In this document: one piece after another, positions 16,672 through 27,392 of the stretch
How positions within the stretch are numbered: position 1 is the stretch's first letter
How the letters are laid out: the number at the start of each line of letters is the position of its first letter
Virus record (IMG/VR): IMGVR_UViG_3300044712_000677
Location: 1-40,825 of that record
From: a virus
Length of the DNA: 40,825 nt
Strand: one strand, 5' to 3'
Translations under genes and position numbers: made by a program
Notes under the pieces: model-generated
Seen by the model: the letters and a program-made list of their open reading frames with translations, nothing else
What the model was told of the DNA's origin: nothing
Databases searched by the model: none

Positions 16672-16831
16672 GTTCCTCCTCAAATATAAATTTTACTGTT
16701 TTACTTCCGCACTTTTTACACTGCAAGTCTTGCACTTTGGAATCGTTTATTCTTCCAAGGCAATCCATGTGTCTAATATCTCTAACTTCTTTCACCTCAT
16801 ACTCACAATTGCAAACGTTATCTTTACTCAT
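16664..16831 (-). CDS. 55-aa zinc-ribbon protein
   Basis: ATG at 16831 overlaps the upstream TGA (ATGA). CNCEYEV near the N-terminus and CKKCGSK near residue 38 provide four to five Cys for one zinc. Its end contains the GAGGAGGA site and overlaps the next ATG. The coding DNA also includes a TGCAAG-T-CTTGCA palindrome at 16722-16734. Confidence 0.6.
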   Translation of the reverse strand: MSKDNVCNCEYEVKEVRDIRHMDCLGRINDSKVQDLQCKKCGSKTVKFIFEEEHV

Positions 16832-17010
16832 ATAACCTCACTTTCGTGTGTTGGCTCCATTTGGGCGACAAATTTATATACATCCTTTTTACTCTTCTCG
16901 ATTCGTTGTAATACCTCTTCCCATGTGATTTGGTCACGGGCGTATAACAATGTGTTGGTTGCGGTGGCAATAAGTGCCAACTCAATCTTTGCTTCTAAAA
17001 GTTTATTCAT
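16828..17010 (-). CDS. 60-aa helical early protein
   Basis: Starts inside the end of the excisionase-like gene (ATGAATAA) and ends with an ATGA overlap. All-helical prediction (LLEAKIELALIATATNTLLY; WEEVLQRIEKSKKDVYKFVA), soluble and slightly acidic. No family recognised. Confidence 0.65.
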   Translation of the reverse strand: MNKLLEAKIELALIATATNTLLYARDQITWEEVLQRIEKSKKDVYKFVAQMEPTHESEVI

Positions 17011-17179
17011 GTTCCTTCTTTCCCCCCCACAAATAATCTATGAGGGCATCTTCTGATATCCGAACCAAATTCCCGATTTTAAACACTTTCAACTTCCCGC
17101 TCTTGATGAGCTTGTCAACGGTTCGGATGTTGACTTGAAGTTTGAGTGCTGTTGTTTGTCGTGTCATTAGGTTTTCCAT
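17003..17179 (-). CDS. excisionase/MerR-like helix-turn-helix DNA-binding protein
   Basis: 58 aa with the HTH_17 (excisionase family) signature: TALKLQVNIRTVDKLIKSGK for the helix-turn-helix, then the wing LKVFKIGNLVRISEDALIDYL. These proteins bend DNA at recombination sites or regulate transcription. No integrase was found, so a regulator is more likely. It has the best promoter of the window (TTGACA, 16 bases, TACACT) 6 bases before its ATG. Confidence 0.8.
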   Translation of the reverse strand: MENLMTRQTTALKLQVNIRTVDKLIKSGKLKVFKIGNLVRISEDALIDYLWGGKKEHE

Positions 17180-22456: not shown

Positions 22457-22486
22457 TGATAAAATAGTAGTATGCAAGACCTTGCA
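22457..22486 (+). promoter_or_regulatory. leaderless promoter and palindrome at the terminase start
   Basis: TGATAAAAT (22457-22465), 6 bases, ATG at 22472; TGCAAG-AC-CTTGCA occupies 22473-22486, i.e. the first transcribed bases. A repressor bound here would block the start of the late block. The 250 bases upstream hold only repeats and AT-rich sequence. Confidence 0.65.
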
Positions 22487-22990
22487 CAAAAACCAGAGAA
22501 AAAAGCCCCTTTAATGCGCATAGACGGTAGAACTCAGCGCTCATTATTCAAAAAAGACCTAAAAGTTACTCTAAAAATGCGCTTATGGATGAAGAAATAC
22601 ATAGAAACAGGTAATGCGGCAGAAGCCGCTCGTCAAGTATATAGGTGTTCTGAAGCTAACGCCTCAAGAATAGGATATGAGAATGTTACCAAGATGAACT
22701 ATCAAGAATTCTTGGAGATTGCGGGGCTTACTGATGCGCTAATTACAAAAAAGTTAATTGAAGGCATGGAATCAGTGAAAATCCACTCATCACATACTGA
22801 GCCTGATAAAGTGATACCTGACATGGCTACACGACATAAGTATTTAGAAACAACAGCGAAGCTAAAGAAACGACTTACTGAGCGTGATATCACTATCGTA
22901 TCTGATAAAACTCTTATTCTCGACGCACTCGATTCAGGCACGAAACAAGAGGATACAACACCCATCCCCATAGAATCAAAGCCAGCCTAA
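22472..22990 (+). CDS. terS: terminase small subunit
   Basis: 172 aa. The central HTH-like region MKKYIETGNAAEAARQVYRC followed by NASRIGYENVTKMNYQEFLE and LTDALITKKLIEGMESVK is typical of small terminase subunits that recognise packaging DNA and recruit the large subunit. Acidic C-terminal tail. First gene of the rightward late block, 500 bases upstream of the large subunit, with a small regulator gene between. Confidence 0.8.
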   Translation: MQDLAQKPEKKAPLMRIDGRTQRSLFKKDLKVTLKMRLWMKKYIETGNAAEAARQVYRCSEANASRIGYENVTKMNYQEFLEIAGLTDALITKKLIEGMESVKIHSSHTEPDKVIPDMATRHKYLETTAKLKKRLTERDITIVSDKTLILDALDSGTKQEDTTPIPIESKPA

Positions 22991-23006: not shown

Positions 23007-23039
23007 ATGTAACTACATCATGCTATAATGTAACTACAT
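23007..23039 (+). promoter_or_regulatory. double palindromic operator around a TATAAT box
   Basis: ATGTAACTACAT at 23007-23018 and again at 23028-23039, flanking TGCTATAAT (23021-23029). The second copy runs into the ATG at 23038. The outer five bases of each half pair perfectly (ATGTA/TACAT), as expected for a dimeric DNA-binding protein. Confidence 0.75.
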
Positions 23040-23346
23040 GAGAACAATAACGATAAGACAATTTCAGCAACATATGTATGAGGAGCTAGCCACGCTACCC
23101 GTAGCTGTTAGCCGTAAAGGTAAGCCCGCATTCATTGTAACTACATCAGACAATGTAACTACATCAAATACTAAGGATAATGTAACTACAAGTAGTAATG
23201 TAACTACACCCGTTACAATGCCCGTAAAAGAGCACGTCATCATGAAGACTAAGCAAGACGCAGTAAGGGTAGCAAGGACACTACACAACGTAACAGGCGA
23301 GCTATGCGTACACAACCTGATGTACCATCCAGGGTGCAACGTATGA
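23038..23346 (+). CDS. Phd/YefM-like antitoxin or autorepressor with operator-encoding linker
   Basis: 102 aa. Residues 1-36 match the Phd/YefM DNA-binding fold (TITIRQFQQHMYEELATL, VAVSRKGKPAFIV). Residues about 35-57 are a Thr/Ser/Asn linker with repeated NVTT units, then a C-terminal region with LHNVTGELC. Antitoxins of this family repress their own promoter as dimers. No toxin gene is adjacent: terminase subunits flank it. It may act alone as a regulator or counter a host toxin. Confidence 0.75.
   Translation: MRTITIRQFQQHMYEELATLPVAVSRKGKPAFIVTTSDNVTTSNTKDNVTTSSNVTTPVTMPVKEHVIMKTKQDAVRVARTLHNVTGELCVHNLMYHPGCNV
23136..23208 (+). repeat. four intragenic copies of the operator core
   Basis: TGTAACTACA at 23136, 23154, 23181 and 23199, same orientation, matching the two promoter operators. 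They encode the NVTT linker of the Phd-like protein. Confidence 0.85.
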
Positions 23347-23492: not shown

Positions 23493-24956
23493 ATGGAACA
23501 AGTCTCCCTTCGTGAGTTGATGAACTTTCAACCCAAACAAACCTCAGCGTTAAAAGCCCTTCTGGACCCCAAATGTAAGTATTTGTTATATGGTGGGGCT
23601 ATGGCTGGAGGGAAAAGTTACGTCCTGAGGTGGTCAGCCTTTTACTACTCACTGTGGCTTTCTCAAAAGTATGGGTTAAAAGGAATCCCAGTCGGGTTGT
23701 TCTCAGAGGACTATCCTACCCTTAAAGACAGACAGATAAGTAAGATGGCCCGTGAGTTCCCCAGTTATCTGGGAGATTTAAAAGAAAGCAAAGAAGAAGG
23801 CTTCGCTTTTTTTATCAAAGATATCTACGGGGGAGGACGTATCTTACTTCGGAATCTCGATGACCCTTCTAAGTATATGAGTAGTGAGTTTGCTGGAATC
23901 TTCGTTGAAGAATTGACGAAGAATAACGAACAAACCTTTCAAGACCTTCGTATTCGGTTGAGATTCCCAGGTATCGACCAGGTGAAATTCATGGGAGCTT
24001 CCAATCCAGGTGGAGTTGGACATGGGTGGGTAAGAAAGTACTTCGTTGATAAAGCAGCCTTTGACGACCCTGAGAAAGACAGGTTTAGTTACGTCCACGC
24101 TACGGCGTATGATAACAAGTATATAAACCAGGACTATTTGAGGCAACTTGAATCCCTTCCGTTAAAGAAGAGGAAAGCGTTCTTAGAAGGAAATTGGGAC
24201 ATCTTTGAAGGACAGGTCTTTGTTGAGTGGGACCGTGAGAAACATGTGATTCCGCCGTTAGTTCCAAAGGATGCCTATGCCTTCGTCGCTGGGTTAGATT
24301 GGGGATACTCCGCACCAACTGTTTTGTTATGTGGGTGTCTCTACCCCCAAGATGTAGATGGGAAGAAGTTCCACCGTTTGATTATTTACAAGGAAATAGA
24401 CGGAATGGAAATCACTCCTGAGAATTGGGCCAAAAAGTGGAAAGAAACCATCACTGAGTTTATGCGACTGAAGATTTACGGTGACCCTGCAATGTTTAAT
24501 AAACTTCAAGACAGTTCCTTTAGTATAGCCGACCAACTAAGAAGAGAGGGTGTCTATGTCCATAAATCAACAAATAACCGTTTAAATGGCATTACAACGA
24601 TTCACAACTGGCTTTCCCAAGCCCCTGATGGACTTCCCTTTATGCAGATAACGGATAATTGTCGGAATCTTATACGAACCTTACCAGAGGCGATGTATGA
24701 TGAAAACGTCCAAGAAGATACGGATAGGAATTGGGCGGAGGACCATTGGTATGATTCACTTCGGTATTTGGTTTCTATGCTTAAATGGGCGCCTGGACAG
24801 GTTGGTGGGGTAATGAGGCCCAACGGACAGAGAGTAGGGATTCCTAAATATCAACTGATGGATAAACAAGGGAGGTTGGTTTCTCTTGACCCTAGTAGGT
24901 TTGGAGAGGTTCAAAACAAAGTCGGAGTCTATTATCCAGATAGTACAAATCGTTGA
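23493..24956 (+). CDS. terL: terminase large subunit (ATPase and nuclease)
   Basis: 487 aa. ATPase domain: Walker A GGAMAGGKS (34-42), Walker B GIFVEEL (135-141), coupling motif GASNPGG (168-174). Nuclease domain (RNase H fold): D269 in GLDWGYSAP, D331 in YGDPA, and D417/D421 in EDHWYDSLRY. The motor pumps DNA into the prohead and cuts the concatemer. Full length, all key residues present. Expressed from its own leaderless promoter. Confidence 0.95.
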   Translation: MEQVSLRELMNFQPKQTSALKALLDPKCKYLLYGGAMAGGKSYVLRWSAFYYSLWLSQKYGLKGIPVGLFSEDYPTLKDRQISKMAREFPSYLGDLKESKEEGFAFFIKDIYGGGRILLRNLDDPSKYMSSEFAGIFVEELTKNNEQTFQDLRIRLRFPGIDQVKFMGASNPGGVGHGWVRKYFVDKAAFDDPEKDRFSYVHATAYDNKYINQDYLRQLESLPLKKRKAFLEGNWDIFEGQVFVEWDREKHVIPPLVPKDAYAFVAGLDWGYSAPTVLLCGCLYPQDVDGKKFHRLIIYKEIDGMEITPENWAKKWKETITEFMRLKIYGDPAMFNKLQDSSFSIADQLRREGVYVHKSTNNRLNGITTIHNWLSQAPDGLPFMQITDNCRNLIRTLPEAMYDENVQEDTDRNWAEDHWYDSLRYLVSMLKWAPGQVGGVMRPNGQRVGIPKYQLMDKQGRLVSLDPSRFGEVQNKVGVYYPDSTNR

Positions 24957-25391: not shown

Positions 25392-27392
25392 ATGTTACAA
25401 AACCCATCCCAACTGATTAAAGACGTAGGACAAGACTATCCTTTACAAGCAAAAGACGGCATCGTTGAAGAGATGGACCCCTTATCTTTGGATATTGAGG
25501 ATAAAGAGTTAGCTAAGGTCCTAGAAGACAGAATTCAAAAAAGTAAGAAGTTTTTTGAAGACATATATCAATTAAGTATTCGTCGCCAGAAGAATGAAAC
25601 CTATTACTTGGGGCGACAGATAGGAAAAAATGAAAAAGCAAACCGTTTACGCCCATACGAAGGCCGCTACCAAGACAACGCACTCTATGAGATTGAAGCG
25701 TCTATTAAGCCTGTTGCGCTTTCTAAGATGCCTGACCTTCTGGTCACGCCAGGAAACCCAACAAAAGAAGCCAAAGAAACAGCCAAAAACATCACGACGA
25801 TAATTGACGACGATATTAAAACGAGAGAGAGAAGGAAAGTCCTCGCCATGGCGTTTAAACATCTTCCAATTTACTTTACTGGAATTATTAAAGTTCGTTG
25901 GGACCCTGAAAAGGGTGAATTTGGGGATTATACGTTTGAAAATGTCCATCCTGAGAATGTTGTTGTAGACGAACAAACTCCCATTAACGATGCCAATGCG
26001 ATGAAATTCATCGCCCAGGCGGTAAAGATGTCCGTCCAGGAAGTGGTGATGAGATTCCCTCAAAAAGAAGAGGAATTTCTAACCGAGATTAAAAAACAAG
26101 GTATCCAAGTCAAACAGGGTGAGGATTGGAAGCAGATGGCCACCCAAGTCAAAATCTGGGAAGTCTGGTTTACCTGGTATAAGAAGAAAAGTGAAACCGA
26201 ATACGAGAGAATTGAAGGAGTGTTGTGGAAGTTTGGTGACTGTATCTTAAAAAAGATGAAGAATCCGAACTTTGACTACGAAGGATATAAGACCTTCTAC
26301 ACGTATGACCAGGAGATTAAGAAGGAATCTACCCAAGAAGAATTGATGGCAGCGACCATAGGGCCTCAACTGGGCCTTCCAACACCAAATATTCAGCAGG
26401 AAACCACCTATAGGAACTACTTCCAAGACCCAGAGAAACCCTATTACTTCATGGGATTTGACCAGTTAGGGAAAATAGCTTATGACGAGACCTCCCGTAT
26501 TGAGCAAAACATCTACAACCAGGAAAATATAGACAATATCGGTAAAAGAATTATTGAAAAGCTACGAGATAGAGGAAAGCATATCTTTTCTAAAGAATCT
26601 GGCCTTACAGGAAAAGATTTAGAGCGAATGGATATGAACAACCCCGACCAAGATATTTTGGCTGAGGGAGATGTGAACAAAGTCCACGCCTATATCCAGC
26701 CTCCACAACCGACTCAACAGGAGTTTGCTGAGATTAAAATGGCCAGAGACCGTATGTTTACCCTTGCAGGAGCGACAAATCTCAATGGAACCCTCCAAAG
26801 TGATGTTGCAACCTCAAATCAAATTGCAAGAGAAGCGAATTTCTCACGTGTTGATGACTTAACAGAGGAAACGATTAACACCGCAGCCGAATGGATGGCC
26901 CGCTGGTCACTTCAAATGATTAAACTCCGTTACACACAGGAACATATGAGGAAAATTCTCGGTTCTAAGGGTGATGTAGCCTTCATGAAGTTAAAAAGTG
27001 ACATGATTGACGATGGAATGGAGATAAAGATTAAAGCCAGTGGCACTGATAAGCAAAAACGCAAGAATATGGCAATGGAAATGGCAAAATTGAAGATGAT
27101 TGACCCACTTTCCTTCTATGAGGACCTGGATTTGAACGACCCAGTAGGAAGAACGGAGAAAATGCTCCTTTCTCAGACAGACCCAGCCACGTATATGATG
27201 AAATTTGTCATGAATATGGATATGCAGCAGGGAATTGATGCCTTAAATCAACAACCGATGCCAGGACAACCAGGTCCACAACCATATGTGAATCCTGTTT
27301 CAACCAATCAACAGCAACCAGTACCAGGAAACACCTCCCAGGTGGCAACTGAGCCTCCAACTGGGGTAACTTCTTCACCACAAGGACAGTAA
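25392..27392 (+). CDS. portal protein
   Basis: 666 aa, the usual size for large P22-like portals. Helical wing and stem regions with NETYYLGRQIGKNEKANRLR, a clip/stem part with KAVLPIYFTG-like hydrophobic strands (AFKHLPIYFTGIIKVRWDPE), and a C-terminal crown with Gln/Pro-rich tail (QQPMPGQPGPQPY). Portals form the dodecamer through which DNA enters and leaves. Located directly after terminase and before scaffold and coat genes, as expected. Confidence 0.85.
   Translation: MLQNPSQLIKDVGQDYPLQAKDGIVEEMDPLSLDIEDKELAKVLEDRIQKSKKFFEDIYQLSIRRQKNETYYLGRQIGKNEKANRLRPYEGRYQDNALYEIEASIKPVALSKMPDLLVTPGNPTKEAKETAKNITTIIDDDIKTRERRKVLAMAFKHLPIYFTGIIKVRWDPEKGEFGDYTFENVHPENVVVDEQTPINDANAMKFIAQAVKMSVQEVVMRFPQKEEEFLTEIKKQGIQVKQGEDWKQMATQVKIWEVWFTWYKKKSETEYERIEGVLWKFGDCILKKMKNPNFDYEGYKTFYTYDQEIKKESTQEELMAATIGPQLGLPTPNIQQETTYRNYFQDPEKPYYFMGFDQLGKIAYDETSRIEQNIYNQENIDNIGKRIIEKLRDRGKHIFSKESGLTGKDLERMDMNNPDQDILAEGDVNKVHAYIQPPQPTQQEFAEIKMARDRMFTLAGATNLNGTLQSDVATSNQIAREANFSRVDDLTEETINTAAEWMARWSLQMIKLRYTQEHMRKILGSKGDVAFMKLKSDMIDDGMEIKIKASGTDKQKRKNMAMEMAKLKMIDPLSFYEDLDLNDPVGRTEKMLLSQTDPATYMMKFVMNMDMQQGIDALNQQPMPGQPGPQPYVNPVSTNQQQPVPGNTSQVATEPPTGVTSSPQGQ

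Follow-up and report, generated by a model that had tools for sequence, protein, structure and literature searches.

A putative phage autorepressor gene with candidate operators at its promoter and inside its coding sequence

Between its two terminase genes, a phage has a small gene with six exact copies of the 10-bp sequence TGTAACTACA, two over its promoter and four inside its coding region. The best explanation, to which we assign a probability of roughly two in three, is that the 102-residue product is a small toxin-free autorepressor with a Phd/YefM-like domain, which would act on promoter operators and on an intragenic operator array serving as a roadblock and/or a decoy.

Results

The DNA analysed here (the window), 40,825 bases long, is an entire IMG/VR virus record. 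It contains exactly six exact copies of TGTAACTACA, starting at positions 23008, 23029, 23136, 23154, 23181 and 23199. All are on the plus strand within 201 bp (23008–23208), and the exact sequence is absent from the rest of the window. The pattern TGTANNTACA occurs eight times against 0.80 expected (maximum of three in 100 shuffles); its two additional matches, both TGTAAATACA (21679 and 37076), are no more than chance would give. In copies 1, 2 and 4 (23007, 23028 and 23153) both arms of the 12-base ATGTA-N2-TACAT palindrome are perfect, while one outer base is missing in copies 3, 5 and 6. Because its spacer, AC, makes the site asymmetric, the copies have an orientation, which is identical in all six.

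Sites 1 and 2 (23007–23018 and 23028–23039, plus strand) both read ATGTAACTACAT. Site 1 lies upstream of the TATAAT in the −35/−10 spacer region, at offset −30 from the ATG; site 2, at offset −9, extends from the last two bases of the −10 box across the region where transcription should start and into the ATG. The intragenic copies of TGTAACTACA are in frame on the same strand and fall into the linker of the protein: site 3 (23136–23145, offset +98) encodes (I)VTT, and sites 4 (23154–23163, +116), 5 (23181–23190, +143) and 6 (23199–23208, +161) encode NVTT. Identity among the copies is 100% but stops at precisely 10 bp, the 10-bp flanks being 20–50% identical, which argues against a recent tandem duplication. 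Centre-to-centre spacings are 21, 107, 18, 27 and 18 bp and are not helically phased. Since the intragenic distances are multiples of three without helical phasing, independent binding would fit better than a rigid spiral. The first-pass annotation had described six sites in about 200 bases with none noticed elsewhere, four of the cores lying within the gene, and the exact count bears this out. It also had two perfect palindromes surrounding the TATAAT; both are indeed perfect, but only copy 1 stands clear of the box, upstream, and copy 2 overlaps its last two bases.

The open reading frame (23038–23346, plus strand) encodes a protein with a DNA-binding-like N-terminal domain (residues 1–34), a linker of VTT/NVTT repeats (34–57) and a C-terminal part ending CVHNLMYHPGCNV. 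A −10 box, TATAAT with an extended TGC, is predicted at 23024–23029 on the plus strand. The ATG (23038) follows it by nine bases, so the mRNA is probably leaderless. The upstream neighbour is the terminase small subunit, TerS (22472–22990, plus strand; PF03592, E 4.5e-5; phrog_51, E 1.2e-6), and the downstream neighbour is the large subunit, TerL (23493–24956, plus strand; PF04466, E 2e-11; phrog_979, E 2e-18), which has its own TATAAT at −12. The location between the terminase subunits, as first annotated, is thus confirmed, and so is the lack of an adjacent toxin: no toxin-like reading frame lies beside the gene. An antisense reading frame (23064–23339) was rejected as a gene because the homology to the relative described below is in the sense frame.

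Several window genes without a Shine-Dalgarno sequence, TerS and TerL included, have a TANNNT motif exactly 12 bases before the ATG. Such boxes were seen for the starts at 16683 and 18956 (minus strand), 19094, 22472, 23493 and 31037, and the large terminase of a related phage, L188, has one as well. This suggests individually promoted leaderless mRNAs in the window phage. The only annotated phages matched by the window portal (25392–27392) are a TM7 (Saccharibacteria) phage and Manatee Spring phage, at ~25% identity, which may point to a host among the Patescibacteria.

Pattern scanning yielded one true relative, the viral contig L100 (IMGVR_UViG_3300032053_006856). Its Phd-like gene encodes 81 residues, 48% identical to the window protein over 62 residues. 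The pattern of a start-codon site combined with one intragenic site returned 15 viral and 21 genome hits, of which only L100 is a Phd-like gene. The remaining hits had no fitting reading frame, and none of the 21 hits from ~85,000 bacterial and archaeal genomes lay in a fitting gene. Pairs of TGTAACTACA across IMG/VR were mostly unrelated coding repeats (NVTTAKIAD, in tail-fibre-like proteins). The L100 gene directly precedes a large terminase (gap ~34 bases) that is only ~22% identical to the window TerL and next to which a TerS gene was not seen. L100 also has six sites, all reading TGTAGTTACA on the gene strand, which is the same double-stranded 10-mer inverted, against 0.07 matches to TGTANNTACA expected by chance in the contig. 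Their offsets from the ATG are −54, −28, −9, +98, +116 and +140; those at −9, +98 and +116 are identical in the two phages, and the last lies close to the offset of site 5 of the window. Spacings (26, 19, 107, 18 and 24 bp) are again not helically phased. The L100 gene is preceded by a TTGACA and, after a 17-bp spacer that includes one site, by a −10-like TAATGT; this box overlaps the site that extends to the ATG. As sites cover the promoter and the ATG in both phages, we infer that the protein regulates its own gene.

The aligned intragenic sites differ in the peptide that they encode. At +98 the codons change from ATT-GTA-ACT-ACA in the window to AAT-GTA-GTT-ACA in L100, and at +116 from AAT-GTA-ACT-ACA to GAT-GTA-GTT-ACA. 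VTT thereby becomes VVT and the preceding residues I/N become N/D, while the palindrome arms are kept. Third codon positions are identical at 8/8 positions within these two sites versus 14/36 elsewhere in the alignment (Fisher p 0.002). When each protein was synonymously recoded with the codon usage of its own phage, the observed intragenic counts (four in the window, three in L100) were reached in 0 of 200,000 trials; the maxima were three and two, respectively. The site codons of L100 are not its commonest ones. Third-position identity and the failure of recoding together provide strong, though not final, evidence from one relative that the linker is constrained as DNA beyond the protein. 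The gene thus shows one trait of an intragenic self-operator: putative operators within the region that encodes its own product, with bases kept as DNA in that relative. An RNA-level motif was ruled out, as the L100 mRNA carries the reverse complement. The first-pass annotation had proposed a comparison of synonymous changes in relatives, and L100 answers it favourably, keeping arms and third positions while amino acids change; the accompanying idea that the linker may be there to carry DNA sites passes this comparison. The interpretation of that annotation as a whole is partly supported, its roadblock, titration and graded switch being candidate mechanisms.

The kinship of the protein is weak. 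Positions 1–39 of the PF02604 profile match it at 12 bits, and Phd_YefM is the only Pfam family common to the N-termini of both proteins, in register from position 1; at 12–13 bits, both are below the curated cut-off of 29.8. In hhalign, 34 columns aligned with YefM and Phd (two sequences that Pfam assigns to PF02604) with a probability of 56% and an E value of 1e-4. AlphaFold models with two sequences had low confidence (pLDDT 46 and 66), with a helix at residues 6–18/19 as the sole confident element. Given the sub-threshold match and these models, we call the protein Phd/YefM-like and not a family member; the original label has a weak, though in-register, match behind it. Protein searches found neither a homologue in phages nor a credible one on plasmids, and nothing useful came from sequence searches of NCBIfam and PDB. 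Two phyla, represented by 398 and 395 genomes, gave no match either, a result of little weight as it had no positive control. Both proteins have Cys/His-rich C-terminal tails (CVHNLMYHPGC at 23305–23346 in the window; CEHGRGVGLCEFGC at L100:5257–5304) that could bind metal.

Neither the gene nor the sites occur in 29 portal-related phage loci (up to 73% identity). The related L188 (TerL 68% identical) has a gap of ~300 bases between TerS and TerL without either. Because gene and sites are absent together, they appear to form one accessory module.

Comparable arrays were seen next to other small genes. At L085:71–432, a toxin-less BrnA-like gene has two exact TGTAGTTACA sites and one near-match, the last exact one overlapping the ATG; a terminase small subunit and then a terminase-like gene lie directly downstream, a similar layout with an unrelated regulator. 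Arrays of three to eight TGTAGCTACA sites stand directly upstream of small genes in four further viral contigs (L180:871–1289, L182:8133–8491, L181:12189–12492 and L185:4162–4543), which, judged by eye, resemble ribbon-helix-helix (RHH) or BrnA-like regulators. Three TGTA(AC or GC)TACA sites precede a 157-residue phage gene at L040:5993–6057 and L138:3227–3291, the last overlapping the ATG.

Discussion

The position of the array invites the idea of a pac/cos-type packaging site to which the small terminase would bind, its overlap with a small gene being incidental. Packaging signals are known to include repeated sites close to the gene for the small terminase. TerS and TerL flank the array, which in L100, too, comes immediately before TerL, and pairs or triplets of sites in L085 and L010 also come before terminase genes. 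We consider this improbable, since phages with detectable TerS homologues (L188, L196, L202 and L203) lack the sites, L100 combines a highly diverged large terminase with no visible TerS gene, and packaging does not require fixed offsets from the ATG and promoter of a Phd-like gene. The sites might instead arise at the level of the protein or by mutation, as a VTT peptide or tandemly duplicated DNA whose identical codons stem from recent duplication and whose intragenic copies have no regulatory role. The string can indeed come from coding repeats, as TGTAACTACA-containing NVTT repeats are common in phage tail-fibre-like proteins (NVTTAKIAD). This origin would leave unexplained the near-random flanks around an invariant 10-mer, the two non-coding copies that overlap the promoter, and the changed L100 peptide in which the site is kept through uncommon codons; we regard it as having a small chance of being right.

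It is also unlikely that a different DNA-binding protein, a phage regulator or a host factor, uses the sites and that the Phd-like gene is only its target. Arrays of TGTANNTACA before RHH/BrnA-type genes in L085, L180 and L182 show the kind of regulator that might do so, and by eye the window contains a small HTH-like reading frame (17003–17179, minus strand). However, none of the scanned window reading frames matched an RHH or BrnA family, the window has no second target of the site, and the same 10-mer accompanies the gene into a distant phage, as would fit a self-contained regulator with its sites.

On the autorepressor reading, the 102-residue protein probably binds the 10-bp site. The two promoter copies, over the spacer and over the −10 box, transcription start and ATG, would block initiation of the leaderless mRNA, and their placement, resembling that of YefM/Axe operators, implies autorepression. 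The four coding-sequence copies would form an auxiliary operator array, on which bound protein may stall the elongating polymerase as a roadblock; they may also, or instead, be decoys whose number rises with the copies of the phage genome. The outcome would be self-limitation buffered against gene dosage, and the linker would largely be a by-product of carrying DNA sites. Against this reading stand the sub-threshold Phd_YefM match, the low-confidence models, the single relative, the uniform orientation of the sites and their lack of helical phasing.

The orientation of the sites is a puzzle. All copies are co-oriented within each phage, the non-coding ones included, and opposite between the window and L100; if orientation were free, this would arise by chance in about 1 in 1,000 cases. 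Uniform orientation does not follow from a symmetric dimer and suggests either head-to-tail cooperation or a copying process. A bolder version, tentative and in our judgement doubtful, is that the linker does nothing except carry the DNA sites and that the head-to-tail array is a self-titrating, copy-number-sensing module, moving between unrelated phages and seated at the terminase locus.

Parts of this arrangement have precedents. The PurR repressor of E. coli regulates its own gene through operators downstream of the promoter, one of them inside the gene; it differs in belonging to the LacI family, in having a single intragenic site and in being chromosomal. The stoperators of cluster A mycobacteriophages block elongation. 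They are multiple asymmetric repressor sites, mostly in one orientation relative to transcription (PMC6550527), and the sites described here resemble them in number, asymmetry and uniform orientation. Stoperators, however, are dispersed over the genome at transcription units, whereas the six sites of the window are confined to one gene and its promoter, and relative to that gene the sites of L100 point the other way. The controller protein C.Kpn2I has a binding site inside its own coding region, where the bound protein stalls elongating RNA polymerase (PMC6237814). The likeness is that of a putative autoregulator with a site in its own gene; C.Kpn2I is a C-protein of a restriction-modification system with one site, whereas the phage gene is Phd-like and combines two promoter sites with four in the part that encodes its repetitive linker. 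YefM and Axe repress their own genes through paired palindromes with a TGTACA core over the −35/−10 spacer, the −10 box or the start (PMC7730913). YefM-YoeB and Axe-Txe have a Phd/YefM-type N-terminal domain, to which the window protein has a weak match, and share with the window gene paired TGT/ACA palindromes over spacer, −10 box and start and, putatively, autorepression. They have 12 bp between centres and a toxin partner (PMC7730913), whereas the window has TGTAACTACA, a distance of 21 bp between its two sites at the promoter and further sites inside the gene, and lacks a toxin. An adjacent toxin gene marks type II toxin–antitoxin systems, and neither the window gene nor that of L100 has a toxin neighbour.

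Single intragenic self-operators, as in C.Kpn2I, and multi-site phage repressor arrays are therefore already known. In the literature searched, no paper described this site, and papers containing the string TGTAACTACA were unrelated by title; nor did we find a Phd-like gene lacking a toxin in which three or four arrayed sites shape the linker of the protein. The gene is a small natural example in which the protein sequence appears to follow from regulatory DNA and not the reverse, with a built-in comparison of the same sites in flipped orientation encoding a different peptide. It provides a clean test system for roadblock, decoy and initiation control, as the site classes are separable by synonymous or non-coding changes, and it suggests that a regulator of this kind, antitoxin-like but without a toxin, can pass from phage to phage along with its operators.
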